DNA of 64,000 nucleotides from assembly GCF_003606285.1 (NCBI RefSeq), contig NZ_CP028884.1:558001-622000 (forward strand), written 5' to 3'. This document shows, one piece after another, positions 3,640-63,200 of this stretch (its first letter is position 1; each line of letters begins with the position of its first letter). The notes under the pieces were generated by a model. That model saw only the letters and a list, made by a program, of their open reading frames with translations, searched no databases and was not told the origin of the DNA. Both the position numbers and the translations under genes were made by a program. Source of the stretch: Borrelia turcica IST7. GTDB lineage: Bacteria; Spirochaetota; Spirochaetia; Borreliales; Borreliaceae.

Positions 3640-4243
3640 TATTAAATTCTAATAATCTAAGCAATATTTTTTTTAATTTTTTGTCATAAAATTTGTCTTG
3701 TGCCCATTTACCTGTAAGGTCATATATAGTTGGAGCAGAGCCTCTTTTTACAAGGTAAAACCTAGGATCGACCATATTGGAATTTATATCCTGACTTGAA
3801 GCGTAAGCTTTTAAGTGTTGAATGTGTGCCCTAATTCCTTCTTTAATATTAGAAAAAGAGTTTCCCTTTGTGAAATTGTCAGTAGCTCCTATTCCTGAAA
3901 AATTATACTGTTCTTTAGAAACAACGCCATTAAATTTTAAAATGCCTGTTTCAAGTAACATTTGAGCGTAAGCAATGTCGTAATTTATCCCCTCAATTAA
4001 AGCTTCATCTATATAGGTCTGTGCAATTACTTGAACATATTCTGATTCAAGATAGGGATTCATTTTTAATGTATATTTGACAAGATCTTCTACTTGACTT
4101 ATTCCTTTGCTTAAAAGAAAAGGAATATACTTTTCTTTTTCTATTTCAGTACTTATTTCAATTATGTCATCTTCACAGTAACCCTTTACGGTTAGTAATA
4201 TTAAGATTTTTGATATTACTAAGAGTATAGATTTTTTTGACAT
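3626..4243 (-). CDS. exported glucosaminidase-domain protein (FlgJ/Bax type)
   Basis: A 205-residue protein with a hydrophobic N-terminus (ILLVISKILILLTVKGYC) that may be a signal peptide. Residues about 75-195 match the glucosaminidase fold of FlgJ C-termini and Bax: IAQTYIDEALIEGINYDIAY, then QMLLETG with the likely catalytic Glu, YNFSGIGA, and a C-terminal DLTGKWAQDKFYDKKL. Such enzymes cleave peptidoglycan glycan strands in the periplasm. A Shine-Dalgarno AGAGGA lies 8 bases upstream of the ATG, inside the intergenic spacer. Peptidoglycan hydrolysis is inferred from the fold motifs. Confidence 0.75.
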   Translation of the reverse strand: MSKKSILLVISKILILLTVKGYCEDDIIEISTEIEKEKYIPFLLSKGISQVEDLVKYTLKMNPYLESEYVQVIAQTYIDEALIEGINYDIAYAQMLLETGILKFNGVVSKEQYNFSGIGATDNFTKGNSFSNIKEGIRAHIQHLKAYASSQDINSNMVDPRFYLVKRGSAPTIYDLTGKWAQDKFYDKKLKKILLRLLEFNNAKS

Positions 4244-4245
4244 TT

Positions 4246-5538
4246 TTAAAATCCTCTTTCTTCAATAAATTTGTTGATTTCTTTAATAACAAAATTAAAT
4301 CTTGGTAGCATTAATTTTTTGTCTTTAAAGAAATTGAAACTTTTTAAATATCTTCTACTAAATATGAAATCAGAAATTTCTCCAACATTAGTCATGTTTA
4401 TAACTTTTATAGATGATGAATCTATTTGGGTTTCTTTCAATTCATTCTCATCTTGTTTTATTAATAATTGTAAAGTTTTTATTTTATTTAAAGTTTGAGG
4501 CTTCCCCCCAATGTTTATATATTTTTTTATTTCCTTGTTCTCATTAATAATTGAGTTTGCAATATTGGCTTGATTCCCAATTGTAATTAATGTTAGTTTG
4601 TTCAAATTCATTTTTAAATCCAAAAATTCTAGTTTTTGAGTCGATTTAATGAGCTCAATAATGTTTTGAATCTCAGTAACTTCAGATGTTTTGTCTGCTC
4701 TTTCATTGAAAATTTTTATAGGTTCTACTAAATACTTAATGGTTTTGTTTGAAATATCAGTTAGTAAGCTATTATCATGATTTTTAATAAAGTCATCAGT
4801 ATGGGGGAATTGATATTTTGGCGAGTATAAATAGACAATGTTTCCTTTCTTAACTAGTCTATTTACTAATGATTTAAACATTGAATCATGAGAATGAGAA
4901 GGTAATATAATAAATACACTGTTATATAGTTTTTGATTGTTGCTAATAAAAGCATCTTTATATACATTGGTGTATTTTGGTATATAATTCATTTCATTTA
5001 TGAAAAATGGATTGAATGTGTAGGAAAGAAAAGGATTTTGACTTTTAAGTCCAAGAGTTAGGCTGGTTGGATACCAAACCGATACGCTTAACTTATTTGT
5101 ATAATCTTTAATTCTAGTAAAACCTATTTTATAGCTAGAGTGTTCATCTTCTGGATAATCTGTAAAAAGGCCAAGGTATGAAAATGTCGTAGCTATTAGT
5201 AAAACCACTATCGATGGTATTACTAATATTCCTTTAAAAAATATAGAGTAAATTATTCTCCTAAATTTATTAGGCTGTTTATTTACTCTTTTTCTTCTAA
5301 ATAGTATTGTGCTTATGTTTTTAATGATGATGATTGTTAAAAAGACTAAAAATAGAGCCCCAACATACAACATGAGCGGTTTGATTTCTATTAGATATAG
5401 ATTTAGTATGAAAAATATCCCTGGAAAAATTATGAAATAATCTTCCCAAGAAAATTCTCTTTTAAAATTGAAGAAGTTTATGACTAAGAATATACTAAAA
5501 CTTAGTAAGAATATAATCTCATAAAATTGTTCATTCAT
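4246..5538 (-). CDS. membrane-anchored PAF-acetylhydrolase-like alpha/beta hydrolase, probably inactive
   Basis: A 430-residue protein with four predicted N-terminal membrane helices (about residues 6-25, 33-51, 55-75, 98-123) followed by a soluble domain. That domain begins YKIGFTRIKDYTNKLSVSVW, like the entry strands of platelet-activating-factor acetylhydrolases. It continues with FIILPSHSHDSMF in place of the oxyanion FSHG loop. The expected nucleophile elbow GHSxG reads G321-N-Q-A-N325, so the catalytic Ser is replaced by Gln323. I therefore think it lacks serine-hydrolase activity. The ATG has AAGGAAA 10 bases upstream, and it is the first gene of a three-gene leftward operon. Confidence 0.6.
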   Translation of the reverse strand: MNEQFYEIIFLLSFSIFLVINFFNFKREFSWEDYFIIFPGIFFILNLYLIEIKPLMLYVGALFLVFLTIIIIKNISTILFRRKRVNKQPNKFRRIIYSIFFKGILVIPSIVVLLIATTFSYLGLFTDYPEDEHSSYKIGFTRIKDYTNKLSVSVWYPTSLTLGLKSQNPFLSYTFNPFFINEMNYIPKYTNVYKDAFISNNQKLYNSVFIILPSHSHDSMFKSLVNRLVKKGNIVYLYSPKYQFPHTDDFIKNHDNSLLTDISNKTIKYLVEPIKIFNERADKTSEVTEIQNIIELIKSTQKLEFLDLKMNLNKLTLITIGNQANIANSIINENKEIKKYINIGGKPQTLNKIKTLQLLIKQDENELKETQIDSSSIKVINMTNVGEISDFIFSRRYLKSFNFFKDKKLMLPRFNFVIKEINKFIEERGF

Positions 5539-5720
5539 AAAAGTACTTTTTCCTTAAGTAATTATAAGCATAAAAATGTTATTTACAAAATAATTTATAA
5601 AATTCCTCCTCTCAAATAAGAATGTTTAGCTCATATAATTATTGTCTGATAAAGTAGAGATATGTTTGCAATCTGGTTATGTTATTTATTTTTTATTTTT
5701 CTGTAGAGGGTTAATTTTCT

Positions 5721-5749
5721 TTTATCCTTTTAGTTTATTGTGGTATAAT
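5721..5749 (+). promoter_or_regulatory. candidate sigma-70 promoter for the metallo-hydrolase gene
   Basis: A perfect TATAAT at 5744-5749 lies 33 bases before the GTG start, with a weak TTTATC -35 at 5721-5726 (17-base spacing). The 243-bp gap 5539-5781 separates divergent genes and must carry promoters for both. I see no clear leftward promoter in it. Confidence 0.45.
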
Positions 5750-5781
5750 GAGATACCTTTAAGAGGTGAAGGGAAATCAGT

Positions 5782-6540
5782 GTGTTGGGGATTTTTTTAG
5801 GAACAGGTGCATCGAGTGGTATTCCTATGTTAAATTGCAATTGTAGGGTATGCAGTTCAAGTTCTGCTAAAAACAAAAGGCTTAGAAGTTCGTTGCTCCT
5901 TAATGTGTCTGGAATTAACTTATTAATTGATACAGGTCCTGATATTAGAGCTCAACTTTTAAGAGAAAGTGTCTCTAGTCTTGACTTAATTTTATATACT
6001 CATGAGCATTATGATCATGTTATGGGTCTTGATGATATTAAATTTTATACAAGAAATTCTCCTTTAAATATATATGCTCGAGAGAGCACGATGAAACATA
6101 TTAAAAATGCTTTTCCTCATAACTTTACATCAAAAGTTTCTACAAGTGGAAAGGCTAATATTATTCCTAATTTAGCAATAGAATTGGAGCCAATTATTTT
6201 TGGAGGAGTAGAAATAATGCCAATTCCTTTACTGCATGGGGATATAATTAGTTTAGGATACAGAATAAACAATGTAGCATATCTTACTGATGTTAAGTCT
6301 ATTCCGGATGTTTCTTATAAATATTTAAATGAACTAGATGTATTAATAATAGATGCTTTAAGAATTAAATCTCATCCTGGTCATTTAAATTTTGATGACG
6401 CTATTAGTGAGGTTAAAAAAATAAAGCCTAAGGTTGCTTATTTTACGCACATTGCACATGATATAATGCATGAAGAATTTGATTATTTAAATAAAGATAA
6501 TATTTATTTGGCTTATGATGGGCTTCGGATACATATTTAA
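5782..6540 (+). CDS. metallo-beta-lactamase-fold hydrolase (PhnP/YycJ-like)
   Basis: A 252-residue cytosolic protein starting at GTG, with GAAGGGA upstream. The N-terminus GTGASSGIPMLNCNCRVC resembles PhnP with its Cys cluster. The zinc-binding HEHYDHVMGLDD (HxHxDH) lies near residue 75, a further His in LLHGD near 153, and the ligand Asp in TDVKS near 174. A final His is in THIAHD. The family includes cyclic phosphodiesterases and nucleases; the substrate here cannot be told. It sits 20 bases before the exonuclease III gene, so it may be part of a nucleic-acid repair or salvage unit. Confidence 0.85.
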   Translation: MLGIFLGTGASSGIPMLNCNCRVCSSSSAKNKRLRSSLLLNVSGINLLIDTGPDIRAQLLRESVSSLDLILYTHEHYDHVMGLDDIKFYTRNSPLNIYARESTMKHIKNAFPHNFTSKVSTSGKANIIPNLAIELEPIIFGGVEIMPIPLLHGDIISLGYRINNVAYLTDVKSIPDVSYKYLNELDVLIIDALRIKSHPGHLNFDDAISEVKKIKPKVAYFTHIAHDIMHEEFDYLNKDNIYLAYDGLRIHI

Positions 6541-6560
6541 TTAAAGGTTGGTAGGTCTTT

Positions 6561-7322
6561 GTGAATTTAATTTCATGGAATGTAAATGGAATAAGAGCTA
6601 TTTTAAAAAAAGGTTTTCTTGAATTTGTTGAAAAACATAAACCAGATATTTTGTGCCTTCAAGAAACTAAGGCATGCAAAGAACAATTACCAAAAGAGCT
6701 TATTAATATTAAAGGATATTATTCCTATTTTTCAAAATCCATAATAAAGGGATATAGTGGTGTTTGTGTTTATTCTAAGATTGAACCTATTAAGGTAGAG
6801 AACATGAGTAGAGAAATATTTGACAAGGAAGGAAGAATCCTTATTGTACATTATCATGATTTTATTCTTATTAATGCATATTTCCCTAATTCTCAATTGT
6901 TAAGAAAAAGACTGCAATTTAAGCTTGATTTTTTAATGCATCTCAAGTCTCTTGCACATTCATTCATAAGTTCTGGGAAAAACCTTATCATATGTGGTGA
7001 TTTTAATATTGCTCATACTGAGATTGATTTATCTAATCCTAAGACTAGTAGAGACTATGCTGGATATTATATTGAGGAAACTACTTGGATGGATAATTTT
7101 TTAAATGAGGGTTATGTTGATACCTTTAGAATATTTAATAAGAACCCAGATAACTATACTTGGTGGGATTATAGAACAAAGGCAAGAGAACGTAATATTG
7201 GGTGGAGAATTGATTATTTTGTTGTGAATGAAGTTTTTAAAACTAGAGTAAAAAATGCTCTAATTTTAAATGAAGTAATGGGTAGTGATCATTGTCCTAT
7301 TTTTTTGCAGTTAGATTGGTGA
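6561..7322 (+). CDS. exoA: exodeoxyribonuclease III / AP endonuclease (Xth/ExoA)
   Basis: A 253-residue Mg-dependent endonuclease/phosphatase-fold enzyme of base-excision repair. It cleaves 5' to abasic sites and digests 3' ends. All signature motifs are visible: MNLISWNVNGIRA, CLQETK with the metal-binding Glu, ICGDFNIAHTEIDL, NYTWWDYR, WRIDYFV, and the catalytic GSDHCPI near the C-terminus. The start is GTG 6561 with an AGG-rich leader. The next gene follows directly, suggesting one operon with the upstream metallo-hydrolase. Confidence 0.95.
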   Translation: MNLISWNVNGIRAILKKGFLEFVEKHKPDILCLQETKACKEQLPKELINIKGYYSYFSKSIIKGYSGVCVYSKIEPIKVENMSREIFDKEGRILIVHYHDFILINAYFPNSQLLRKRLQFKLDFLMHLKSLAHSFISSGKNLIICGDFNIAHTEIDLSNPKTSRDYAGYYIEETTWMDNFLNEGYVDTFRIFNKNPDNYTWWDYRTKARERNIGWRIDYFVVNEVFKTRVKNALILNEVMGSDHCPIFLQLDW

Positions 7323-7337
7323 TAAATGGGGTTGTGC

Positions 7338-8084
7338 ATGAATAAATGTTTCTTAATTATTCTTATTTTTTTTATTCACGGGTTTGTTTTTGGAATTGAT
7401 TTAGAGAATATTGATTTTTATCGTGGTCTTGATAGGAAAGAATTAGTATTTGTAATTCATTTATTTGAACGAGAAAAATATTTGAGTCAAAATAGTAAAC
7501 TTTTAACATACATTGACTTGGCTAGAGAAGCTTTAGCTGAGAAAGATATTCGAGTATTGCAAGACAAGGATAGAGTAGGTGATACAGGGCATATTGAGTC
7601 TTTAAGACGACCGGAGAATTATAGTAGTGAAAAACTTGTTTTAAGTGTATCAAAGGCTTTAAATATTTTGGTTTATTGTGATGGCAAGGATAGGTTTTTA
7701 AAAACTTTAGATGGACGAAATGTGGGTATTGAAAATGGTAATTTTGTAATTCTAGACTCTTTTCATAAAAAAAGCTATGGTGATTTACCCAGTGAGCATA
7801 CTACTATTGAGATTTACAAGGCAAGTATTTTAAATCCTGATTTTAATAAGTTTAGGTTAGATGAAACTGGCTCTTTTGTTTTTCTTAGCGAGTTTAATAA
7901 AAAGGTTTACCTTGATGATATTTCAAGTTTATCTAAGATGGAACTTTTGTTCTTATTTTATGAATTATTTCCTATTTCAAAATTAAAGGGTGTAAAGGAT
8001 TGGTATGATTTTGGATTTTTATCGATTCTTAAAGAGCTTAAAAAAGCTTATAATATAGAAATAAATTCAAGGAGAATTAAATGA
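7338..8084 (+). CDS. exported hypothetical protein
   Basis: I start at ATG 7338, which has GGGG 6 bases upstream, rather than the in-frame ATG at 7326. The 248-residue product begins MNKCFLIILIFFIHGFVFG, a classic signal peptide probably cleaved before IDLEN. The mature protein is hydrophilic with no motif I recognise. Its stop overlaps the start of the M16 protease gene (ATGA), so the two are translationally coupled, and a periplasmic role alongside the protease is plausible. Function unknown. Confidence 0.75.
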   Translation: MNKCFLIILIFFIHGFVFGIDLENIDFYRGLDRKELVFVIHLFEREKYLSQNSKLLTYIDLAREALAEKDIRVLQDKDRVGDTGHIESLRRPENYSSEKLVLSVSKALNILVYCDGKDRFLKTLDGRNVGIENGNFVILDSFHKKSYGDLPSEHTTIEIYKASILNPDFNKFRLDETGSFVFLSEFNKKVYLDDISSLSKMELLFLFYELFPISKLKGVKDWYDFGFLSILKELKKAYNIEINSRRIK

Positions 8085-10885
8085 AGTATCGCAGTATCAA
8101 TAATATAAATAGAGTTTTAATTTTAGTATTTCTTCTTTTATCTTGTGCTCCTTCTAAGTTAAAGACTGATCAGAATTTAGTAAGTGGTCAACTTGAGAAT
8201 GGACTTAAGTATTATATTTATGCTAACAAAACGCCGGAGAAGGCTGTTTATATGGGGATTTTATTTAATGTAGGTTCTTTAAATGAAGAGGAACATGAGA
8301 GAGGATTGGCTCATTACCTTGAGCATATGGCTTTTAAGGGAACAGAAGATTATCCGGGTGGTGAGGGTGTTTTAAAAGTTCTTAAAAAGTTTGGGATGGC
8401 ATTTGGAGCGGATATTAATGCTTATACTTCTTTTGATAAAACTTATTATAGTCTTGATGTGCCGGATGGTAATAATGAGGCAGAAGTTGATGAGGCTTTA
8501 AATGTTTTGAAGAACTGGGCTTCACAGATGGAATTGGATGAAGTAGAAATAGAAAAAGAGCGTAATATTATCATTGAAGAGAAGAAGCTTGGAGAGCGTT
8601 ATCCAAATAGAATTGTGGAAAAAATGTTTAAGTTTATTCTTGGTAATAGTAGATATGCGGACAGATTTCCTATTGGACTTGAAGAGAGGATTTTAGCTTT
8701 TAAATCAGAAGATTTTAAGAAATTTTATAAGAAATGGTATAGACCAGATCTTACTAGTGTCATTATTGTAGGAGACATTGAACCTGACAAGATTGAAGAA
8801 AAAGTAAAAGAAAAATTTTCATCTTTCAAGAAACCTGAGAGTGAGCTTGAAAAGATTAAAATAAATCTAGACACATCAATTAATGAAAAATTTATTAGTG
8901 TAGAGGATTTTGAGACACCATTTCCTGGTGTGATTTTTGTTAAAAAAGATAGTTACAATGTTGTACTTACACCTAGTCATATTAAGAAAAATATTGAGAG
9001 AACCTTATTGAATAGTCTTTTTGCAAATAGGTTTTCTGAGTTAAGGGCTTCTGGAATAAATGATTTTATGTCTTTTAATAAAATTGATTCTCCACTAAAG
9101 TCGGATGATAATTATATTTTAATTGATCAAATTTCTGTTGAATTAAATCCAGATCAATTAAAAGAAGGTCTTGAAGAATTTTTTTATCAAGTAGAGAGAA
9201 TAAAGAAATTTGGATTTACTCAAGGGGAAGTGGATAAGGTTAAGTCTCAACTTATAAGCTCTTATAAGCTAAGTAAAGATAACATAGATAAAAGAAATTC
9301 ATCTACTATTACTAATATTTTAGTAGATGTTGCGACAGAAGATTCTGCCATGCTTGATATGCATGAGTATTATGATATTGCTATTGATCATCTAAATAAA
9401 ATTAGTCTGGCTACAATAACAGGTTTGGCCAAGAGAGAAGCGTCTATAAATGATCATGCTATTATTTATTCTTATTCTAATAAATCTCATCGTGATTTGA
9501 CTCTTGATGAAATCCAGGGAATACAAGAGCTTGCATTAAAAAGAGAAAGTAAGCCTTATGAGGATGTATCAATTCAAGGAAAATTTTTGAAGGAGGACTT
9601 GAAAAACAAAGAGATTATTGATGAGAAAGAATTGTTTGGAGGAGTATCATCATTTACTCTTGAGAATGGAGTTGAAGTTTACTTTAAACATAATGAACAT
9701 AAGAAGAATGTAGTTACTCTTAGTGCAAGTTCTTGGGGTGGATTATTAAATGAGAATGCTGATCTTATACCTGTTTTGGATATGGCGCCGAGTGTCGTTT
9801 CAAATTCAGGTTATGGGGATTATTCTCAACTTCAAGTTGAAAAATATTTGGCAGACAAGGTTGTAAGTTTAAATACAACAGTTAATTTTCAAAAAACAAA
9901 CCTTAGTGGAAGTGCTGAGGTCAAAAACCTTGAAACTCTTTTTGAGCTTATATACTATACATTTAATGAGCCAAAGATAGATGATATTGTTTTACAAAAC
10001 ACTATTAACGATATAAAAGCGGTCATTAAAAGCAGGGAGGATGATTCTAAATATCTTTTTGGACGAGCTGTTAAGGGGTTTTTAAATAATGATGATTATC
10101 GTTACAGAGATATTAAGGAATCTGATTTGAAAAATATGACAAAGGAAATCCTTTTAGATTTTTATAAAAAGAGATTTGCCTATGCAAATAACTTCAAATT
10201 TGTGTTTGTGGGAGATGTAGATTTAAATACAATAAAAACTCTTTCAAGGAAGTATTTGGGTAACTTGAATGCTAAAAAATTGGATGAGTTTAAGGATTTA
10301 GATCATTCTTATAAGAAAGATACGGATAGAATAGTTATAAGGAAAGGTGAGGATTCAAGTAGTATTGTTTATGTTCTTTATCCTTTTGAATTCAATTATA
10401 CACCCGAGAGTACTTTAAACTATCAAGCTTTGGCTTCTCTTTTGACTGATGGTCTTATTAAAAATATTAGAAGGGATATGTCTAGTGTTTATTCAATAAA
10501 CGCATACTTTAATTATTCTGTTAGACGATATAAAAATTCAGATGGTTTTATATATGTAACTTTTACAGTTGAGCCTAAAGTTCTTGATAAAGTCTTAAAA
10601 TCTATACATGAGTATATGCTAGAGAGACAAAAGATAGATTATACAGAAGAAGATTTTGATTATGTTAAGAAAAATATCATTAAAGAAGAGGAAATTAAAT
10701 CTCAATCTAATTTGTATTGGTCTTCCTCAATATTAGATTCAGTTCTGTGGACAGGTACTTTTGAAGATACCATAAGTACTACATTTATTGAAAATAATTT
10801 AAATAAAGATGTTATAAATTCATTGTTAAAGAAAATTAATTTTAATCAGAAGACAGAAATTGTTTTGATGCCAGAAAAAGAATAA
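8081..10885 (+). CDS. M16 family zinc protease, lipoprotein
   Basis: A 934-residue pitrilysin/insulinase-type metalloprotease. The N-terminus LILVFLLLSCAPSK is a lipoprotein signal with Cys22 as the likely acylation site, placing the enzyme in the periplasm or at the cell surface. The inverted zinc motif HYLEH lies in GLAHYLEHMAFKGT, and downstream acidic residues (EVEIEKERNIIIEE) supply the third ligand. A second M16 half starts near residue 530 (FTLENGVEVYFKHNEH) and, as usual, lacks the zinc motif. The start overlaps the upstream stop by 4 bases. It ends one base before a convergent gene, with no visible terminator. Confidence 0.92.
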   Translation: MKYRSINNINRVLILVFLLLSCAPSKLKTDQNLVSGQLENGLKYYIYANKTPEKAVYMGILFNVGSLNEEEHERGLAHYLEHMAFKGTEDYPGGEGVLKVLKKFGMAFGADINAYTSFDKTYYSLDVPDGNNEAEVDEALNVLKNWASQMELDEVEIEKERNIIIEEKKLGERYPNRIVEKMFKFILGNSRYADRFPIGLEERILAFKSEDFKKFYKKWYRPDLTSVIIVGDIEPDKIEEKVKEKFSSFKKPESELEKIKINLDTSINEKFISVEDFETPFPGVIFVKKDSYNVVLTPSHIKKNIERTLLNSLFANRFSELRASGINDFMSFNKIDSPLKSDDNYILIDQISVELNPDQLKEGLEEFFYQVERIKKFGFTQGEVDKVKSQLISSYKLSKDNIDKRNSSTITNILVDVATEDSAMLDMHEYYDIAIDHLNKISLATITGLAKREASINDHAIIYSYSNKSHRDLTLDEIQGIQELALKRESKPYEDVSIQGKFLKEDLKNKEIIDEKELFGGVSSFTLENGVEVYFKHNEHKKNVVTLSASSWGGLLNENADLIPVLDMAPSVVSNSGYGDYSQLQVEKYLADKVVSLNTTVNFQKTNLSGSAEVKNLETLFELIYYTFNEPKIDDIVLQNTINDIKAVIKSREDDSKYLFGRAVKGFLNNDDYRYRDIKESDLKNMTKEILLDFYKKRFAYANNFKFVFVGDVDLNTIKTLSRKYLGNLNAKKLDEFKDLDHSYKKDTDRIVIRKGEDSSSIVYVLYPFEFNYTPESTLNYQALASLLTDGLIKNIRRDMSSVYSINAYFNYSVRRYKNSDGFIYVTFTVEPKVLDKVLKSIHEYMLERQKIDYTEEDFDYVKKNIIKEEEIKSQSNLYWSSSILDSVLWTGTFEDTISTTFIENNLNKDVINSLLKKINFNQKTEIVLMPEKE

Positions 10886-27787: not shown

Positions 27788-28134
27788 GTTTTACTCCTTG
27801 TTTAATTTTAGCATAATAAGAGCATTAAAAGTGATTTTAGTATCAATTAAAGATATAATCCATAATTGTCGATTTTGTTCATTTTTGTTTATTTTTTTAA
27901 AATTAATTTATTTATTACTTAAGGTATTTAGCTTTAAAATATGTTTTAGTTATTGAAATAAATACTTGAAGCTATTCAATTCTCAACTTTTAAAATATTT
28001 AAAAGATTGATTGCTTTTGTGTTTGAAATAAAATTGCTTGTATTTTTATTTCACTCTTTGAAGATAACATACATTATTTGCATTATTTTGTTAAAATATA
28101 TTTTGAATTTTTGAGTAATTTTGATGCTGAATGT
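27788..28134. other. divergent intergenic region, cheY1 / ligA
   Basis: The 347-bp gap has no credible coding ORF. It contains the cheY1 ribosome site and a rightward promoter candidate TTGATT (28007-28012), 16 bases, TAAAAT (28029-28034). A perfect 10-bp inverted repeat TGAAATAAAA (28024-28033) with TTTTATTTCA (28044-28053) overlaps that -10. An operator covering the ligA promoter is possible. Confidence 0.45.
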
Positions 28135-30150
28135 ATGAACAAAAAAATAGAAGATGAAATTTTATATTTAAAAAATTTAATCAAGAAATGGAATAAAGAG
28201 TATTATATCGATTCTTCACCAAGTGTAGATGACTTACATTATGATAAATCTCTTTTGCGACTGCAAGATTTGGAGAATAAGTATCCTGAATATAAGACTT
28301 TAGATTCTCCCACTCTTAAATTTGGGAGTGATCTTTTAAATGATTTTAAAGAAATTGAACATTCTTTTCCTATATTGAGTTTAGATAAGGCTTATGATGA
28401 ACAGGAATTGTTGTTGTGGATTTATAAAGTAGGATTAGGGGACTCTAGTTCTAGTTTGGGAGTTTTAAATGGTATTTCGGTTGAGCCAAAAATTGACGGG
28501 TGTTCAATTGTTCTTTATTATAAGGATGGCATACTTGAGAGAGCGCTAACTAGAGGGGATGGAAGGGTTGGTAATGATGTTACTGAGAATGTTAGAACAA
28601 TCAAAAATGTTCCTTTATGTATTGATAAAAGGGTTGATTTAGTATTACGGGGTGAGATTTATATAGGTAAGGAAAATTTTTTTAAAATAAATCAAACATT
28701 AGAAAACTCTTATATTAATGCTAGGAATTTAGCTTCAGGTATACTTAGAAGAATAAATAGTCGGGAAGTTGCTAATTTTCCTTTAGATATTTTTGTTTAT
28801 GATGTTTTGTATTCTAGTTTAGGTTTTAACACAAATCATGATACTTTGGATGAACTTGAAAAGTTAGGATTTAAAGTTAATCCTTTTTTTAAGCTTTTTG
28901 ATGATAAAAATTTAGAAGAAGATATTATTGGTTATGTTAGAGAAATAGAGAATAAAAGAAATACTCTTGAATATGAAATTGATGGGGTTGTTCTTAAAGT
29001 TGATAGTTTTAGTTTAAGAGAAGCTTTAGGACATACTTCTCATCATCCGAAGTGGTCTATAGCTTATAAATTTGAATCTCTTACGAGTGTTAGCAAGGTG
29101 ATTGATATCTTTGTTCAGGTTGGGCGTAGTGGTAAAATTACTCCTGTTGCGCATATTGAAAGAGTTCTTGTTTCTGGAGCTTTTATTGAAAATGCAACTT
29201 TGCATAATCAAGATTATATAGATTCTATTGATTTAAATATTGGAGATATTGTTTCAATTTCAAGGCGTGGAGATGTAATTCCGGCTGTTGAGTCAGTTAT
29301 TGAAAAGCTTTCAGTTGGTAGTTTTAAAATTCCAGGTAGTTGTCCTTCATGTGGAATCTCTTTAATAAGGGAGGGTGCTCACCTTTTTTGTGAAAATAAA
29401 AGTTGTCCTTTTAGGATAATTGAGCAGATAAAGTATTTTTGTAGTAAGAAATGTATGGATATTGTAGGACTTTCAAATAAAACAATTGAGTTTCTTTTTA
29501 AAATGAATTTTATATATTCAGAAATTGATCTTTATACTTTTAATTTTGATAAGCTTATTAACGTGAAGGGGTTTAAGTTAAAGAAAATAGATAAATTTAA
29601 AAATTCAATCGAAAACAGCAAAAACAGGCCATTCAGAAAGCTATTTCTTAGTATGAGCATTAGAGAAGTAGGGGAGAATACAATAGAATTGCTAATTGCT
29701 AATAATTTAAATTCATTTGATGTGATTAGTACTCTTTGTAAAGATAAAGAGAATGCCCTTGTAGAGCTTTTAAAGATTAAGGGTATAGGGGAAAGAATAG
29801 CTTTAAATATTATTGAATCGTTTAATGATGAGAATATTTTGAGCAAATTCAACTTTTTTAAAGAATTAGGATTTAAGATGGAAGAGGACAATACAAATTA
29901 TGATTTAAATACTGCGTCTTTACTTGGGAAAAAGTTTTGTATTACAGGTTCTTTTGAAGGATATTCAAGACATATTCTTATTGAAAAAATAAATAAGAAA
30001 GGTGCCATTTTTAACAATTCAGTTACTAAGAATTTAGATTTTTTACTTGTTGGAGAGAGGCCTGGCTTGAAAGTGAGAAAAGCTATGGATTTGGGTATTA
30101 AAATAATTAGTTTTTCTGATATTAGAAGTTTAATAGAATTAAATGATTAG
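28135..30150 (+). CDS. ligA: NAD-dependent DNA ligase
   Basis: A 671-residue ligase sealing nicks in replication and repair, using NAD. I start at ATG 28135; a longer frame from 28078 adds non-family residues. Domain Ia (YYIDSSPSVDDLHYDKSLL) is followed by the adenylation motif EPKIDG with the reactive Lys. After the OB fold comes a Cys4 zinc finger (CPSCGISL and FCENKSCPF). Helix-hairpin-helix repeats (LLKIKGIGERIALNII) and a C-terminal BRCT domain (GKKFCITGSFEGYSRHILIE) complete it. No strong Shine-Dalgarno is visible. It ends 2 bases from a convergent gene. Confidence 0.95.
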   Translation: MNKKIEDEILYLKNLIKKWNKEYYIDSSPSVDDLHYDKSLLRLQDLENKYPEYKTLDSPTLKFGSDLLNDFKEIEHSFPILSLDKAYDEQELLLWIYKVGLGDSSSSLGVLNGISVEPKIDGCSIVLYYKDGILERALTRGDGRVGNDVTENVRTIKNVPLCIDKRVDLVLRGEIYIGKENFFKINQTLENSYINARNLASGILRRINSREVANFPLDIFVYDVLYSSLGFNTNHDTLDELEKLGFKVNPFFKLFDDKNLEEDIIGYVREIENKRNTLEYEIDGVVLKVDSFSLREALGHTSHHPKWSIAYKFESLTSVSKVIDIFVQVGRSGKITPVAHIERVLVSGAFIENATLHNQDYIDSIDLNIGDIVSISRRGDVIPAVESVIEKLSVGSFKIPGSCPSCGISLIREGAHLFCENKSCPFRIIEQIKYFCSKKCMDIVGLSNKTIEFLFKMNFIYSEIDLYTFNFDKLINVKGFKLKKIDKFKNSIENSKNRPFRKLFLSMSIREVGENTIELLIANNLNSFDVISTLCKDKENALVELLKIKGIGERIALNIIESFNDENILSKFNFFKELGFKMEEDNTNYDLNTASLLGKKFCITGSFEGYSRHILIEKINKKGAIFNNSVTKNLDFLLVGERPGLKVRKAMDLGIKIISFSDIRSLIELND

Positions 30151-30152
30151 AT

Positions 30153-32108
30153 TTATTTTATTATTCTTATATCTTTAAATTCAGATTCTAGATTTTTATA
30201 TAAAGAATCTATTTCATTTGTATTTTCTATTTCTATTAGGTTTCTAAAGAAAGTCTCTTTATGCTTTAATGATGGGTTAATGAAGCAATTCTTGATATGA
30301 TGTTTTGAAATTAATTTATAAATTTCTTCGGCTCTATATAGATTTTTTGTTGGTTCTATTTCAACATAATATTTATCGGGTTTTCTGAAAGCAAATTTAT
30401 CTCCTTTTTCTTTAAAATTATAGTTATTTGAATATGTATCTGGATATATTTGAAAAGATGCAGGTTTTATTCCTGTTATTTTTTTGGTATTTTTATGAGG
30501 TATGTCTTTAACTGTTATTTCTTCTTTAGGAAGTGGTTCTATTTTTGTTATTGTATTTTCTTTGCTTTGTTCTGGGAGCTTGTTGGCATAGTGTATTTCT
30601 GGACTTTCATCTTCTTGTTGATTTTTTATTTCTTTATGCTCTTTTGTTAAAAGGTCTCTCTTTTGAGACTCGGACAATTCTTTTTGAAGTGTTGAGATAG
30701 CATTTTCATTCTCTTCTAATCTTTTCTCTAATGCATTTATTTTATCTTGTTTGTTGTTAATTTTATCTTCATTTTCCTTGTATGAGTTTTCAGTTTGTTC
30801 AATCTTTTCTTTCAGTTCATTTATTATTTTTTCTATAGAAGATAAATTAAGTTCAATCTCTTCTAAACTGTTATTTTCATTGTTATTTTTTTGTAAATTT
30901 ATTAAGTCTTTTTGAAGAGCTAAAATAGTATCTTCATTGTGAGTAATTTTGTCGTCAAGTTCTTTAATCATGTGAGAATTATTGTTAATAGCATCTTCGC
31001 TATTGATAATCCTGTCGTCAAGTTCTTTAATCATGTGAGAATTATTGTTAATAGCATCTTCGCTATTGATAATCCTGTCGTCAAGTTCTTTAATCATGTG
31101 AGAATTGTTGTTAATAGTATCTTCGTTATTGATAATCCTGTCGTCAAGTTCTTTAATCATGTGAGAATTGTTGTTAATAGTATCTTCGTTATTGATAATC
31201 CTGTCGTCAAGTTCCTTAATCATGTGAGAATTGTTGTTAATAGTATTTGCGTTATGAGTAATTTTGTTGTCAAGTTCCTTAATCATGTGAGAATTGTTGT
31301 TAATAGCATCTTCGTTATTGATAATCCTGTCGTCAAGTTCCTTTATTACTTGTGCTTCTGAATGAAAATGTTGCGGCTCTCTGTTATAATATTCATCCTC
31401 TTCTGTTTGATAATTATAATTTGTGTTTGGTATGTAATTGTCTTGATTGTAATCATATGTTTCTTCATTCTTGTGACCATATTCTTGTTCATTTTCTTCA
31501 TAAGTATCTTTTTGTGGCTTGGAGTTATTGCTTAGTAAATGTTCTTTTTTATTGATTAAATTTTTTATCTCTTCAATTTCTCGTTTTAAGCTTTTTGCTA
31601 GAGCTTCATATTCTTCATCCTTTCTTTGAATAGTTTCTGTATTTTTGTTGTTTAAAAGCCTTTCTATGTTGTCTATTTTATTCTCATAGCTTTCAATTCT
31701 AAGTTTTAATTCATCTACATTTGTTTTCGGTCTTGAATCATTCATATTTGGGTGTTCAAAGGAAGATTTTTTTGATTTTAAGTATTGTGGAAGTTGTAAT
31801 TCTTTACCATATAGACTATTATCTGTTGAACTACTTTTATCTAATCTTTGAAGTTGTTCCAAATCTCTAAATTCAAGTTTATTTGATTTTTCACTATGAA
31901 GATTAGGTTTATTTGAGACATCATCTTCCAAAGTTTCTGAATTTTCATTTTGGAAATCTTCGCTTAAGTCTTCTTTGGGAATGTAAACTTCAGAAGGATT
32001 TATTATAGTATCACTTACCTCAGGTTCATCTTCACCAAAGAGTAATGGGCATGAAAATAGCACAAAAATTGTAAGAAGGATGAAAAATTTCTTGTTACCT
32101 TTACTCAT
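30153..32108 (-). CDS. exported coiled-coil protein with tandem 21-residue repeats
   Basis: A 651-residue protein. The N-terminus FFILLTIFVLFSCPLLFGED is a signal peptide. FSC could be a lipobox, otherwise cleavage falls after LFG. Residues about 130-500 are predicted coiled coil, containing seven tandem copies of a 21-residue unit (IKELDDRIINNEDTINNNSHM), exactly three heptads, encoded by a 63-bp repeat. The C-terminal 110 residues form a separate domain (FAFRKPDKYYVEIEPTKNLY) that looks globular and conserved. Repeat number probably varies between strains. A periplasmic or surface spacer function is inferred. Confidence 0.75.
   Translation of the reverse strand: MSKGNKKFFILLTIFVLFSCPLLFGEDEPEVSDTIINPSEVYIPKEDLSEDFQNENSETLEDDVSNKPNLHSEKSNKLEFRDLEQLQRLDKSSSTDNSLYGKELQLPQYLKSKKSSFEHPNMNDSRPKTNVDELKLRIESYENKIDNIERLLNNKNTETIQRKDEEYEALAKSLKREIEEIKNLINKKEHLLSNNSKPQKDTYEENEQEYGHKNEETYDYNQDNYIPNTNYNYQTEEDEYYNREPQHFHSEAQVIKELDDRIINNEDAINNNSHMIKELDNKITHNANTINNNSHMIKELDDRIINNEDTINNNSHMIKELDDRIINNEDTINNNSHMIKELDDRIINSEDAINNNSHMIKELDDRIINSEDAINNNSHMIKELDDKITHNEDTILALQKDLINLQKNNNENNSLEEIELNLSSIEKIINELKEKIEQTENSYKENEDKINNKQDKINALEKRLEENENAISTLQKELSESQKRDLLTKEHKEIKNQQEDESPEIHYANKLPEQSKENTITKIEPLPKEEITVKDIPHKNTKKITGIKPASFQIYPDTYSNNYNFKEKGDKFAFRKPDKYYVEIEPTKNLYRAEEIYKLISKHHIKNCFINPSLKHKETFFRNLIEIENTNEIDSLYKNLESEFKDIRIIK
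30924..31349 (-). repeat. 63-bp in-frame tandem repeat array
   Basis: Six complete 63-bp units begin at 30951, 31014, 31077, 31140, 31203 and 31266, with a partial unit on each side. The units starting at 30951 and 31014 are identical, and so are those at 31077 and 31140; the others differ by point changes. This pattern indicates recent pairwise duplication inside the gene. Confidence 0.95.
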
Positions 32109-32333: not shown

Positions 32334-34193
32334 TTGGTGTATATTAATTTAGAAAATATGGACGAAATTTGGGGTTTGCCAGTTTGTTGTAAGAGTAAGA
32401 ATTCTATCATTGAAAATTTTACGCTTTCAGATAAATATAAAGATCAGATTTCCAGTATTAGTTATAAGGATAATATTGTTCTAAAACTTAATGATATTGT
32501 TGGTTCTGATGATTTTAATTTAAAACTTTTTGATAACAAAATAGACTTTGAAGGTCAAGTTCCTTTAGTTTTATATTCTAGTAACTTAGATTCTTTATTG
32601 GAAGCAGAGGAAAGTATTGCTTTTGAACTCAAGACTATTGAACAGAATGAAAGTTATTCTGAACCAATATTGAAGGAGTTTGATGAATTAAAAACATACA
32701 AGTCTTATTATGAATTTTCAGATTATGTGAATTATTGTAATGAATCTCTTATGGTTAGAGTTTCCTTTAAAGATGATAGCTTAGTTATTGATGCAGATGT
32801 TGATAAAATTGCTCTTTTAAAGAAGATTATTAGTGATAATTTTTGTATTAGTAAAGATAAGATAATTATTAATTCTTTTAATGATTATTGTATTGCCTCC
32901 CTTTTTCCAATTTCTTTTAATGCAGTTTTGCAAGGTGTATTAATTGCTACTAGACTTAAGAGAAGAGTTAATATTGTTTATTATAAAAGACATTTTTTAA
33001 TGTCACAGGATTTGAGGTTAAAATTTTCAGCTGTTAATTGTTTGTCAGCAGAAAATAAACTTTCAAAGATTATTTTAGATGTTGAAATCAACAGGCCGTT
33101 GAATTTTTTGTATAAATTTTATTTTAACTATCTCAAACATATTTTTAATAATTTGTTTTTTGATTTAAGTGTGCATATTAATTTTATAGAATCCAAAAGT
33201 GATGTTGTATTTTTTTATGATAATCATTTTTTATTTGAGACATCTGTTTATAACTTTATTTATTCAAATCTTTATAATCTTGCGGTTAATTTTTCAGTTG
33301 AACCTATTAATTATTTGCTATCTCATGTTAAAGAGGAATACGATGTGTTTTTAAAGTTTTTTGAACAGATGAATTTTAAAAATTCTATCATGAGAAAATC
33401 ATCTTCTATAAGTTTAAATAATACCTATGGCATTTTGGATGTAAGGAGAAAAGGAATAGGATTTAGTTTTCTGGATCTAGACTCTATTTTTGTGGGAAGT
33501 AGGCAAACTATTTCTATGAGTTTGCATAAGAATAAGTTAGATGTATTTATTCCTTATAAAGTGTTGGATGACAACTTAATAAATTATTTAAGGAATACTT
33601 TAGCTAGGGATTTTGGACTGTCGTATGATAGTGTATGTTTTGTTGTTAGTGATGCTTTTACAGATGATATTGATTATGGTGCATTGATTAAAGAATCTTA
33701 TTTTATTGAAAGAGAAGTTTTAACTGTTAAGGATAATCTTTCTTTAATGATTGGTGAAAATTTTAAAGGTGAATATCCTGTTGTAATTGAACAAGATTTT
33801 AGTCTAAACACAGATACTAAGTTTAAAGTTGCATGCTCTCTTGAAATTGATATAGAAATGTATTCTTTTAAAGTTACATTTAGTAATGTAACTTTTTTTG
33901 TTGAATATGGTAATTTTGATAAGATTAGGCTAAATAATAAGCGGGCATTTTCGGTTTTTAGTTTGGCAGTCAACTATGTTTTTGGAAAAATTAATTATGG
34001 CATTGATGATTCTTTAACATTTGAGTTTATTGAGGATGGAGAGCATTTTTTTTCTTGGAGAGCATTGTTTATTGCATCTGTTTCTGCAATAAGGACAGCT
34101 TTAATTCAAGCCTTTGATTTCAATTTGTCTAGGATTCCTATTGAGATTGAAGATGTTTTAAATAGCTGGAGTGTGAGAATTGATACTAATTAG
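32334..34193 (+). CDS. degenerate molybdopterin-hydroxylase large subunit homologue (XDH/CoxL-like)
   Basis: A 619-residue soluble protein. Early residues DFEGQVPLVLYSSNLDSLLE resemble the hydroxylase a/b hammerhead domain, where substrates enter. A middle part (ATRLKRRVNIVYYKRHFLMS) aligns in order with the molybdopterin domain. The C-terminus DGEHFFSWRALFIASVSAIR resembles the family GEPP segment that carries the catalytic Glu. The Gly-rich GGGFG cofactor loop and the molybdopterin-binding Gln motifs are missing. The start is uncertain: TTG 32334, GTG 32337 or ATG 32358. It is coupled to two genes resembling the other subunits, which strengthens the call. It is almost certainly not an active molybdoenzyme. 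Confidence 0.6.
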   Translation: MVYINLENMDEIWGLPVCCKSKNSIIENFTLSDKYKDQISSISYKDNIVLKLNDIVGSDDFNLKLFDNKIDFEGQVPLVLYSSNLDSLLEAEESIAFELKTIEQNESYSEPILKEFDELKTYKSYYEFSDYVNYCNESLMVRVSFKDDSLVIDADVDKIALLKKIISDNFCISKDKIIINSFNDYCIASLFPISFNAVLQGVLIATRLKRRVNIVYYKRHFLMSQDLRLKFSAVNCLSAENKLSKIILDVEINRPLNFLYKFYFNYLKHIFNNLFFDLSVHINFIESKSDVVFFYDNHFLFETSVYNFIYSNLYNLAVNFSVEPINYLLSHVKEEYDVFLKFFEQMNFKNSIMRKSSSISLNNTYGILDVRRKGIGFSFLDLDSIFVGSRQTISMSLHKNKLDVFIPYKVLDDNLINYLRNTLARDFGLSYDSVCFVVSDAFTDDIDYGALIKESYFIEREVLTVKDNLSLMIGENFKGEYPVVIEQDFSLNTDTKFKVACSLEIDIEMYSFKVTFSNVTFFVEYGNFDKIRLNNKRAFSVFSLAVNYVFGKINYGIDDSLTFEFIEDGEHFFSWRALFIASVSAIRTALIQAFDFNLSRIPIEIEDVLNSWSVRIDTN

Positions 34194-34641
34194 TTTTAAT
34201 TTGAATGGAGAAAATCTTTCAAAAAGTGTTGATCTTTCTTTGAGTGCTAGGGATCTTTTGGTAGATGTTTTTTATTCGGGTGAAAAAAATTTAATTAAGA
34301 ATATTAATAATAACTTTTCATTAGTGCTTTTAAATTTGAAACCAGTATATGCATCTTTAGTTCCAGCTTTTATGTTAAATGGAAGTAGTGTTATGACTAT
34401 TGAAGGTTTAAAGAATACATCTTTTTATAATAATTTAGTTAAGGTTTTATTAGAAAATGATTTTGGGTTTTGTGAAAACTGTTTTTCATCCAATGCACTA
34501 TTATTTTATTATTTTTTGAAGAGTAAAATAATAATTAGGACAGATATTTTAGGGTATTATAATACTTTAAGGTGTTATTGCATTGATGTTAATACTTTTT
34601 TAGATATTTATTTGCAGTTGGAAGAACTAGAGAGAAAATGA
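34180..34641 (+). CDS. degenerate [2Fe-2S] small-subunit homologue (CoxS/XdhC-like)
   Basis: A 153-residue protein from TTG 34180 (GGAG 8 bases upstream), overlapping the large-subunit gene by 14 bases. ISFNLNGENLSKSVDLSLSA matches the ferredoxin-like N-terminus of CO-dehydrogenase small subunits. TIEGL is kept, and C98-ENC101 and C132-Y-C134 match the CGFC and CRC pairs of the second cluster. The four Cys of the first, ferredoxin-type cluster are absent. These are the only four cysteines in the protein. The last codon region overlaps the next gene by ATGA. Confidence 0.72.
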   Translation: MILISFNLNGENLSKSVDLSLSARDLLVDVFYSGEKNLIKNINNNFSLVLLNLKPVYASLVPAFMLNGSSVMTIEGLKNTSFYNNLVKVLLENDFGFCENCFSSNALLFYYFLKSKIIIRTDILGYYNTLRCYCIDVNTFLDIYLQLEELERK

Positions 34642-35501
34642 GTGGAGCAAAAGTATATTATCCAGAAAATTTTAATGCACTTGTTAGTTTGTTTAATAAA
34701 GAATTAAATAATTATATCGTGTATAACGAAATTGATTTTCATAAAAATATTGAAATTTTTAAGGAAAGGGATAATGTTAATAATTTCTTTTTAATTAATA
34801 ATTTTGAAAGATTTAAAAAAGTATCACTTAAAAGTAATTTTTTAGAAATAGGACCATGTGTTACTTATAATGAAATATTGCAATTTGGAGAGAGAAATAT
34901 TCCAAGGTTGTTTTATGAGTTTATTTCAAAATTAAGTGATAAAATATATCTAAATAGTATTAACATTTCTAATGGATTTTATTATAAAAATACCGTTTTT
35001 GATTTGTATCCTTTGTTTTTAAGTCTGGATGCTCAGCTTGAATTTAAGAATGTTTTAACTAAAAAGACTTATACTTATAATGCTTATAATATTAACAGGG
35101 ATGATTACATACAGAATCGCAATACTTTGTTTTTGACTAAATTAAAATTTCCAATTACAAATCTGTGGAACAAGAGCTTTTATGGTAAAGTATTTGTTGA
35201 TACTTTTTCATTTGAAATGCTAGCCGATGCAAATATTATTTTTATTTGTGTGCTTTTAAATGTTAAAAGAGACATTATAACTGATTTTTTGATGAAAATA
35301 TTTTACGATGATAAGGTTATTACTTTAAGAGACTCTCAAGTTTTGCTTCTTAATAAATCTTTGCCTTTGTCTATCTTTGAAATTGAAGATTCTCTTAAAA
35401 TGCTGGATAAGAATATTCGAGATGTGAAAAATTTTAGCTTTGGGGAGAGAAACTTGAAGCTTATAAAAAATTTTTATTTTGATACATTAGTTAATTTTTG
35501 A
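34638..35501 (+). CDS. degenerate FAD-domain medium-subunit homologue (CoxM-like)
   Basis: A 287-residue protein whose ATG overlaps the upstream stop. The order of segments follows the hydroxylase FAD domain: FFLINNFERFKKVSLK, LEIGPCVTYNEI (family IGA-x-vT), a helix, FDLYPLFLSLDAQLEF (family SD..P.LLALDA) and TKLKFP. The Gly-rich FAD pyrophosphate loops (AGGTD and GTxGGN) are replaced by YNEIDF and SINISNG. FAD binding is therefore doubtful. Its position as third gene after the large and small subunits supports descent from a heterotrimeric hydroxylase. Confidence 0.68.
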   Translation: MSGAKVYYPENFNALVSLFNKELNNYIVYNEIDFHKNIEIFKERDNVNNFFLINNFERFKKVSLKSNFLEIGPCVTYNEILQFGERNIPRLFYEFISKLSDKIYLNSINISNGFYYKNTVFDLYPLFLSLDAQLEFKNVLTKKTYTYNAYNINRDDYIQNRNTLFLTKLKFPITNLWNKSFYGKVFVDTFSFEMLADANIIFICVLLNVKRDIITDFLMKIFYDDKVITLRDSQVLLLNKSLPLSIFEIEDSLKMLDKNIRDVKNFSFGERNLKLIKNFYFDTLVNF

Positions 35502-60235: not shown

Positions 60236-60276
60236 CTATTAAAAATCAGATTTTATTTTGATAAAATAAGTGAAGT

Positions 60277-63200
60277 ATGAATTTAAAAGTTAAATTTATT
60301 CATTTGCATGTTCATTCAGATTATTCTCTGCTAGACGGTGCCGCCAAGATTACAGATATTGTTGCAAAGGCAAAAGAACATAATATGTCCCATATTGCAT
60401 TAACAGATCATGGGAATCTTTTTGGTGCTATTAGGTTTTATAAAGAAGCAAGAAGGGTTGGGATAAAACCTATAATTGGTATTGAGGCTTATATGTCAAG
60501 TACATCAAAGCACATAAAGAAGAATGATGATTTAGGAAAGCCTTCTTATCATTTAATTCTTCTTGCTAAGAATGAAATGGGCTATAAGAATTTATTAAAA
60601 CTTACAAGCATTTCTTACCTTGAGGGATTTTATTATCGTCCGAGAATAGATAAGAGTGATATTGAAAAGTATTCTGAAGGTCTTATTTGTACGTCTGCGT
60701 GTATTGGTGGGATTATTCCTCAGTTAATTATGGCCAATAGGTTTGATGATGCAAAGAATGAAATTCTTTGGTTTAAAAGTATTTTTGGAGATGATTTTTA
60801 TCTTGAACTTCAACGACATGGAATTAGGCAACAAGATATTGTTAATGAGAAATTAATTGCTTTTTCTAGGGAACTTAATGTCGCGTTAACTGTATCTAAT
60901 GATTCTCATTATGTTAATAAAGAGGAAGCAACAGCTCAGGATATTATTGTCTGTATTGGAACAAATGCTAAGAGAAGCGATTCTAATAGGCTTAGGATGG
61001 AGACCAATGAGTTTTACCTTAAATCTCAAGAAGAAATGTGTGAACTTTTTAAAGATTTGCCAGAAGCTTTAGAGAATACTGTCAAAATTGCTGAGAAATG
61101 TAATGATTTTAAGATAACATTTCCAGGGCCTATTTTCCCTGAGTATAGGGTTCCTAGTGAATTTAATACTCTTGGTCAATATCTAGAGCACTTAACAATT
61201 GAGGGCTTAGAATTTAGGTATGGCAATATAACTAAGAGCATTAAAGAGCGTGCTTTGTATGAACTATCAACAATAATTAAGATGGGATTTGAGGCTTATT
61301 TTTTAATTGTTTGGGATTTTATTAAATTTGCTCATGATAATGATATTCCCGTTGGTCCTGGCCGTGGTTCTGGGGCAGGTTCAATTGTTGCATATGCTTT
61401 AAGAATTACGGATATTGATCCTTTAAAATATAATCTTCTCTTTGAGAGATTCTTAAATCCTGAGCGTGTATCTATGCCTGATTTTGACATTGACTTTTGC
61501 TTTGAGCGTAGAGACGAGGTCATAAAGTATGTTACAAGAAAATATGGTGAGGATAGAGTTGCTCAGATAATTACATTTGGAACCTTAAAGCCTAAGGCTG
61601 TATTTAAGGATGTTGGAAGAGTGTTAGATATTCCTTTTGCGGAGTCCAATGAGCTTACCAAGCTTATACCCGATGGTCCAAAGGTTTCTTTAAAAGAAGT
61701 CTTGGCAGATGAGACTTTAAAAGGATATTTTAATAAAGGTCCTGTATATAAGGAGATGATAGATGCGGCTCTTGTGCTTGAGGGTATGAATAGACATGCT
61801 TCAACTCATGCGGCAGGTATTGTTATTTCTAGAGCACCTTTAACGGAGTATGTACCACTTTACAAGGACTATAAACAAAATACTATTTCTACGCAGTATA
61901 CAATGGACTTGTTGGAAGATTGTGGACTTGTGAAGATGGACTTTCTTGGTCTTAAAACATTAACTTTGATAAAAAATGCAGAAAATTTAATTAGAATTGT
62001 TAATCCTGATTTTAGAATAGATACTATTTCTGATAATGATGATAAAACTTTTAAGATGCTGTCTGAAGGGCGTAGTACTTCTGTTTTTCAATTTGAATCG
62101 GAGGGTATGCAACAGGTTTTACGGGAAGCAAAACCAGATAGTATTGAGGATTTAATTGCTTTAAATGCGCTTTATCGTCCAGGGCCTATGCAATTTATAC
62201 CTCAATTTATTGCGGCTAAGACAGGAACTAAAAAAATTAAATATCCTCATCCAGACTTAAAGGAAGTTTTAAGGCCAACTTATGGGGTTATTGTATATCA
62301 AGAGCAGGTAATGGAGGTTGCAAGAATTATTGGGGGTTTTTCTCTTGGAAAAGCGGATATCTTAAGACGTGCAATGGGAAAGAAGAAAGAAGATGAAATG
62401 AATAAAATGAAAGTTGACTTTTTAAAAGGGGCACTTCTTAAGGGTTATGACGAGGATCTTGCTAGTGATATATTTGAACTTTTAAAACCTTTTGCGGGGT
62501 ATGGTTTCAATAAGTCTCATGCAGCTGCATATTCTTTAATAGCTTATCAAACAGCATATCTTAAGGCTAATTATCCTGAAAACTTTATGGCCGCCAACTT
62601 AACAAATGAGATTAATAATAGTGAAAAGCTTTCTTATTATATTGAAGAAGCAAAGTCAATGGGGATAAATGTTTTAAAACCTGATGTAAATCAATCTTTT
62701 AGAGAGTTTCGTGTAATGGAGTCAAGTATCTCTTACGGGCTTAATGGAATTAAGAATATTGGGGGGAGTATAGTTGACCTTGTTATTGCTGAGAGAGAAG
62801 CGAATGGGAAGTATAAATCTTTTGAAGATTTTATTAGAAGAGTAGATGATAGAGTTATAAATAGGAAATTTCTTGAGTCTGGAATAAAGTCTGGACTTTT
62901 TGATAGTCTTGACCAAAACAGGAAAACACTTGTTGAAAATCTTGATAGATTGATAGAAGTTGTATCTAAAGATAAGAGCGATAAGAAACTTGGTCAGAAT
63001 AGTTTATTTGGATCTTTTGGAGTTCATGATGCTGTCGAGGAGAGTTTTCATTATGATTTATTTGAGGAATATTCTTATTCTGAGCTTTTAAGATTTGAAA
63101 AGGAACTTTTAGGTTTTTATGTATCTGGACATCCTCTTGACCCATATAAAGTAGCAATAGAAAGCTTTGCAACCTTAAATGTATTAGAAGAGCTTGCTAG

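Follow-up and report, generated by a model that had tools for sequence, protein, structure and literature searches.

We analysed a 64,000-nt window of the Borrelia turcica IST7 genome (NZ_CP028884.1, positions 558,001-622,000 of the forward strand; genome G000 in our set), in which three coupled genes go back to the three subunits, large, small and medium, of a molybdenum hydroxylase of the xanthine dehydrogenase (XDH) type. With somewhat better than even confidence, we read the trio as a three-subunit complex of XDH architecture that would lack the molybdenum cofactor (Moco) and be kept for another role, redox or structural and linked to oxidative stress, and that would not be a xanthine dehydrogenase. 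We infer this biochemical function from sequence: the parts that hold molybdenum (Mo) and flavin are absent, and the Mo site was lost long ago throughout the class Spirochaetia, so the complex probably does a different job. The open reading frames (ORFs) follow the order large-small-medium (L-S-M), overlap by 14 bases (large/small) and 4 bases (small/medium), and contain the motifs TIEGL, CENC, CYC, IGPCVTYNEI and DLYPLFLSLDA. All of this had been read from the DNA in a preliminary description, whose coordinates we reproduced. The large-subunit ORF starts with TTG at 32334, with alternative starts at 32337 (GTG) and 32358 (ATG).

Descent from a molybdenum hydroxylase, proposed in the preliminary description, was confirmed by profile-profile comparison and Foldseek. 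Taken alone, the medium protein matches models of the XDH subunit that binds flavin adenine dinucleotide (FAD; TIGR02963, E 2.8e-6; PF00941, E 1e-3), and the small protein matches the XDH gamma-type model NF041020 (E 6e-5); the large protein alone has no match among the Pfam and NCBIfam models. With hhalign, the Borrelia subunits align to their Spirochaetia relatives at a probability of 99.5% for the medium (E 4.3e-23), 99.3% for the small (E 6.6e-21) and 95.7% for the large subunit (E 9.5e-9, 566 columns). The large-subunit alignment scores 76.9, compared with at most 22.4 for 15 column-shuffled targets, one reversed target and one unrelated family, each with a probability of 0.5% or less. 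Its probability of 95.7% applies to the Mo-less lineage described below; against canonical and sister XDHs it is 18.6%. The class-wide medium-subunit profile retrieves the Borrelia medium protein (E 6e-27), and the Spirochaetia relatives match solved structures of XDH, aldehyde oxidase and CO dehydrogenase with best E values of 8e-65 (large), 4e-41 (small) and 6e-32 (medium). A search of the Protein Data Bank (PDB) with the Borrelia large subunit alone found nothing. AlphaFold models were built from 14 Borreliaceae sequences and no other taxa. Foldseek matched the large-subunit model to XDH-family structures in 50/50 matches listed (best E 6e-10); for the medium-subunit model, too, the top-ranked match is an XDH-family structure (best E 1.6e-4). 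Placement in unrelated folds, the outcome that was to count against descent from a hydroxylase, did not occur for either subunit: structures of XDH, aldehyde oxidase and CO dehydrogenase dominate the matches of both models, poor as these are, with aldehyde and xanthine oxidases at the top; since template modelling scores are ~0.3, we treat the structure matches as supportive only.

Searching with a Borreliaceae medium-subunit profile brought up relatives in numerous Spirochaetia, where they are located in L-S-M gene trios. Matches to a profile of the non-Borrelia large subunit occur in 215 of the 248 Spirochaetia genomes and in 96 of the 101 genera, counts that include the canonical XDHs of some genomes; close inspection covered 36 loci of the class lineage outside Borreliaceae. 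In the tree, these 36 lineage members and 6 Borrelia sequences (42 rows) form one clade with a Shimodaira-Hasegawa-like approximate likelihood ratio test (SH-aLRT) value of 100. The sister group consists of 711-717-aa XDHs of Spirochaetota that keep the Mo motifs (L062, L139, L154-L157). L139, at first sight a lineage member, has intact Mo motifs and is therefore placed with these sister XDHs. By this phylogeny the trio is shown to belong to a Spirochaetia-wide clade, sister to XDHs bearing Mo motifs. The Borreliaceae genes share the traits of the lineage, namely L-S-M order, overlapping genes and no Mo motifs.

The loss of individual cofactor sites was followed with motif counts that rest on alignments and simple expressions; several canonical small- and medium-subunit controls are incomplete at contig or locus ends, which leaves the Mo counts as the only ones with a clean control. 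The molybdopterin loop GGxFGGK and the active-site arginine motif AFRGFG are each present in 13/13 canonical Spirochaetia XDHs and 2/2 sister XDHs, and in 0/36 lineage members and 0/5 Borrelia; GGAFGGK is likewise retained by sister XDHs from other parts of the phylum. The catalytic glutamate motif GxGE near the C-terminus occurs in 9 of the 36 lineage members, and Borrelia has a GE at DGE[HF] with the GxGE context absent. The plant-type N-terminal [2Fe-2S] cysteines are found in 31/36 lineage members and 0/5 Borrelia; besides Borrelia they are gone from L074 (in genome G108), L082, L083, L121 and L132. The FAD loops AGGT and TIGGN are kept by 32/36 and 34/36 lineage members, respectively, and by 0/5 Borrelia. 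At the level of motifs, these counts show that the molybdopterin loops were lost in the common ancestor of the lineage in Spirochaetia. On the same counts the N-terminal [2Fe-2S] site is a later loss, in several lines, and of the losses just that of the FAD loops appears specific to Borreliaceae. The alignments bear out the absences listed in the preliminary description (the GGGFG loop, the first [2Fe-2S] cysteine set and both glycine-rich FAD loops). Its claim that the cofactors were lost stands for Mo, the N-terminal [2Fe-2S] cluster and FAD, and fails for the C-terminal [2Fe-2S] site (CxxC...CxC), whose cysteines C98, C101, C132 and C134 do not vary among 22 Borreliaceae.

The same description had treated cofactor loss as a Borrelia event that followed from missing molybdopterin. 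This part has to be given up: the Mo motifs are gone from all 36 Spirochaetia loci examined, some of them in genomes that have Moco genes and XDHs that look active, so that the Mo site was lost in an ancestor and not through the lack of the cofactor in Borrelia. A MoaE search of Borreliaceae genomes (INDEPENDENCE from Moco) found none. Searches for MoaA and MoeA over the 248 Spirochaetia genomes found none in Borreliaceae and none in 22/22 sampled genomes of family f24, including G108, all 22 of which have a large-subunit homologue. The same MoaE, MoaA and MoeA searches gave matches in control genomes. ORFs of ~270-280 aa with a partial match to the MoaA C-terminus lie near moeA in three genomes (G059:C1:1744439-1746287, G060:C1:99981-101832 and G056:C67:8863-10744). 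These genomes are rich in canonical XDHs, with no MoaE in G059 and G060 and a weak MoaE match in G056, and the short ORFs look like a variant Moco pathway. In B. turcica a NifS-like aminotransferase (G000:C1:81475-81912) adjoins a short NifU-like gene (82576-82791), a possible minimal iron-sulfur assembly pair; with such a pair in the genome, an iron-sulfur cluster would be possible even in an iron-poor organism.

The large gene is present in 36/36 Borreliaceae genomes searched, and all three genes are intact in 30/30 Borreliaceae loci inspected. Pairwise ratios of nonsynonymous to synonymous substitution rates (dN/dS) range from 0.07 to 0.30 in all three genes. This indicates purifying selection and bears out the earlier suggestion that the genes are retained under selection. 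In B. burgdorferi, bb0554, bb0555 and bb0556 emerge in both peroxide transposon sequencing screens of a study that describes them as having limited homology to CO dehydrogenase subunits (PMC5333916), and bb0554 and bb0555 emerge in a larval-tick screen (PMC6516651). A review (PMC10566445), citing Phelan 2023 (10.1099/mic.0.001286), uses the name xdhACB for these genes and describes a xanthine dehydrogenase that contributes to resistance to reactive oxygen species. Homology of the trio and virulence phenotypes are already published; the class-wide stepwise cofactor loss and the sugar-gene linkage described below are new relative to the literature that could be reached.

The usual gene order in Spirochaetia is UDP-sugar dehydratase, DegT aminotransferase, L-S-M and dnaE. 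A UDP-GlcNAc 4,6-dehydratase-like gene (Polysacc_synt_2) and a DegT gene lie directly upstream of the trio in 28/36 loci, and dnaE lies downstream in many. No close homologue of the dehydratase or of DegT was found in Borreliaceae. The matches there are distant, at ~30 bits, to a NifS-like aminotransferase and an epimerase-like protein. At locus L161 (G049:C6:16000-31000), dehydratase, DegT and dnaE are consecutive at 3372-9501, with ~95 bases from DegT to dnaE and the trio absent from the slot; a 602-aa ORF in G049, which matches MoCoBD at 14 bits, was judged not to be a lineage member. As Borreliaceae have the trio without the sugar pair and G049 has the sugar pair without the trio, each half can exist alone. 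Since Borreliaceae retained the complex after the sugar pair was lost, its role in Borrelia does not depend on that pathway. The pyridoxal phosphate (PLP) lysine of DegT is kept in 29/29 sequences, which led us to reject the idea of a pyridoxamine phosphate-dependent 3-dehydrase (ColD/E1 type) that receives electrons from the complex. In a 1.14-Mb genome, G108, taken here for Treponema pallidum, the trio and the sugar pair both lie at 84-91 kb; a literature search by T. pallidum gene number found nothing. At this locus (L074, 2249-8589) the FAD loops and the C-terminal Cys4 site are kept, and all N-terminal [2Fe-2S] cysteines are replaced. In the window, dnaE (60274-63717, + strand), the usual downstream neighbour in Spirochaetia, lies 25 kb downstream of the trio on the same strand.

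From these comparisons it seems rather probable that a Spirochaetia ancestor turned an XDH into a Mo-free complex with a new conserved job, which would now be near-universal in the class and which even minimal pathogens, Borrelia as well as the presumed T. pallidum (G108), have retained. Shedding would have been stepwise, of Mo, then of the N-terminal iron-sulfur site and then of FAD, leaving a nearly cofactor-free machine in Borrelia. Among the other Spirochaetia, most probably have a complex that continues to bind FAD and [2Fe-2S] clusters and that would have been recruited beside the dehydratase and aminotransferase pair. Within the lineage, the motif comparisons show a further loss in Borreliaceae, of the N-terminal [2Fe-2S] cysteines and of the two FAD loops, with one Cys4 site and purifying selection remaining. 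We propose that the three proteins continue to form an L-S-M complex like that of XDH, in which the Cys4 site of the small subunit may hold a single [2Fe-2S] cluster (or Zn) beside the emptied active-site domain. This complex would no longer be a hydroxylase and could instead be a structural or redox-responsive partner that cells require on exposure to peroxides.

The published name xdhACB and the mutant phenotypes (PMC10566445), together with the homology of all three subunits, would fit a working xanthine dehydrogenase that uses Moco taken from the host. We consider this highly improbable, as the three molybdopterin motifs are all missing, together with the two FAD loops and the first [2Fe-2S] site, MoaA, MoaE and MoeA were not found in Borreliaceae, and the Mo motifs are lost across the class even where Moco genes are present. 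A decaying relic, still expressed and functionless, could account for the successive loss of cofactor sites and for the long Borrelia branch; the presence of the large gene in every genome searched, the intact trios, the low dN/dS and the transposon phenotypes in peroxide and tick screens have already largely refuted it, and we give it hardly any credence.

Two further explanations concern the job of the complex. In Borrelia the emptied XDH frame might be a new catalyst that binds another cofactor or substrate at remodelled sites. The sequences that replace the FAD loops are new, conserved motifs, with 8/11 invariant positions in the YNE[IL]DF region and 10/15 in the N-x2-NGFYYK region, and among the large-subunit stretches tested, conservation peaks at 254-277 and 212-232, not at the old molybdopterin loop. 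Where the FAD loops once were, however, invariant positions are only weakly enriched (p about 0.03), and no known binding motif was recognised among Pfam and NCBIfam models; we regard a new catalyst as unlikely, though worth keeping in mind. A continued part in amino-sugar or glycan synthesis, played in Borrelia too but with a different set of sugar genes, would agree with the position of both sugar genes directly upstream in 28/36 class loci and with the distant epimerase-like gene that Borrelia retains (31 bits). Against it stand the absence of close dehydratase or DegT homologues from Borreliaceae, the sugar pair without the trio in G049, and the retained PLP lysine of DegT, by which this protein does not resemble a reductase-dependent ColD/E1-type dehydrase; we think such a part quite improbable.

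Several observations weigh against the Mo-free complex that we favour. A PDB search with the family profile of the Borrelia large subunit found no relative; the homology of this subunit rests on the class intermediates, on hhalign with its shuffled controls and on Foldseek. With a branch of 4.1, the Borrelia large subunit has diverged strongly, and this long branch makes the position of Borrelia inside the lineage unsure. The AlphaFold models are poor, with a mean predicted local distance difference test score (pLDDT) of 48.6 and 41.5, which bears on complex formation and on the geometry of the Cys4 site. That site is complete in all Borrelia tested and in 28/36 other lineage members, and is therefore not indispensable class-wide. 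We infer the cofactor losses from motifs, and an unusual mode of binding is possible. The role in oxidative stress rests on the published transposon screens in B. burgdorferi.

Upstream of the trio lie ligA (28078-30150) and a coiled-coil, repeat-rich ORF on the minus strand (30153-32108), which contains a 63-bp tandem repeat of 6.7 copies at 30924-31345 with NNSHMIKELDDRIINNED-type units. Downstream are ptsH and the gene for enzyme I of the phosphotransferase system. This neighbourhood corresponds to bb0552-bb0558 of B. burgdorferi. The B. burgdorferi genes that the preliminary description had expected at this site are indeed there: bb0554-bb0556, orthologous by position, are the same three genes, lying between ligA/bb0553 and ptsH. 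A promoter scan gave a result at chance level.

Table. Positions of the three subunit genes and of their cofactor-related sites in the window
Feature	Position	Strand	Remark
Large subunit gene, XDH/CO dehydrogenase large-subunit homologue, bb0554-type	32334..34193	+	619 aa, without molybdopterin motifs
KIIINSFNDYCI, aligns with molybdopterin loop GGxFGGK of canonical XDH	32859..32894	+	alignment
Small subunit gene, iron-sulfur subunit homologue, bb0555-type	34180..34641	+	153 aa; N-terminal [2Fe-2S] cysteines gone, C-terminal Cys4 present
Cys98 and Cys101 codons (C-x2-C), C-terminal [2Fe-2S]-type site	34471..34482	+	invariant in 22 Borreliaceae; aligned with XDH C-terminal cluster
Cys132 and Cys134 codons (C-x-C), same C-terminal Cys4 site	34573..34581	+	invariant in 22 Borreliaceae
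Medium subunit gene, FAD subunit homologue, bb0556-type	34638..35501	+	287 aa; both FAD loops replaced
YNEIDF at position of first FAD loop (AGGTxL)	34722..34739	+	Y29, N30, E31, D33 and F34 invariant in Borreliaceae
NISNGFYYK at position of second FAD loop (TIGGN)	34962..34988	+	N109, N112 and G113-K117 invariant in Borreliaceae

The class-wide comparison lays out a series in which a single enzyme frame has lost its cofactors in nature, and free-living relatives within it may still bind FAD and iron-sulfur clusters. Borreliaceae, with the trio and no sugar genes, and G049, with sugar genes and no trio, are matched natural experiments. These results make it testable by what means Borrelia, with few classical genes for the purpose, withstands oxidative stress.

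The literature labels bb0554-bb0556 as 'xdhACB', 'CO dehydrogenase subunit-like' and 'putative xanthine dehydrogenase', whereas the trio described here lacks every molybdopterin and FAD signature. Members of the XDH/xanthine oxidase family (1jro, 1fo4, 3hrd, 1t3q, 4zoh) have the same large, small and medium subunits, and the class lineage matches them over full-length profiles; it differs in lacking GGxFGGK, the FRGFG arginine and usually GxGE, and Borreliaceae additionally lack the FAD loops and the N-terminal [2Fe-2S] site. The 711-717-aa sister XDHs of Spirochaetota are nearest in the tree, and L154, L155 and L157 share the L-S-M order, but they keep the Mo motifs. The CO dehydrogenase of Hydrogenophaga (1ffu) is an XDH-family enzyme that, according to its PDB title, lacks the Mo-pyranopterin moiety and was crystallised with its subunits. 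This title suggests that an XDH-family enzyme may assemble without its pterin, although 1ffu is a normal enzyme in a cofactor-poor preparation and not a case of evolved loss. A precedent that works alike is NuoG/NDUFS1 of respiratory complex I, a molybdoenzyme-derived subunit retained without Mo; it belongs to another superfamily (DMSO reductase type) and is not homologous to the large subunit of the trio.

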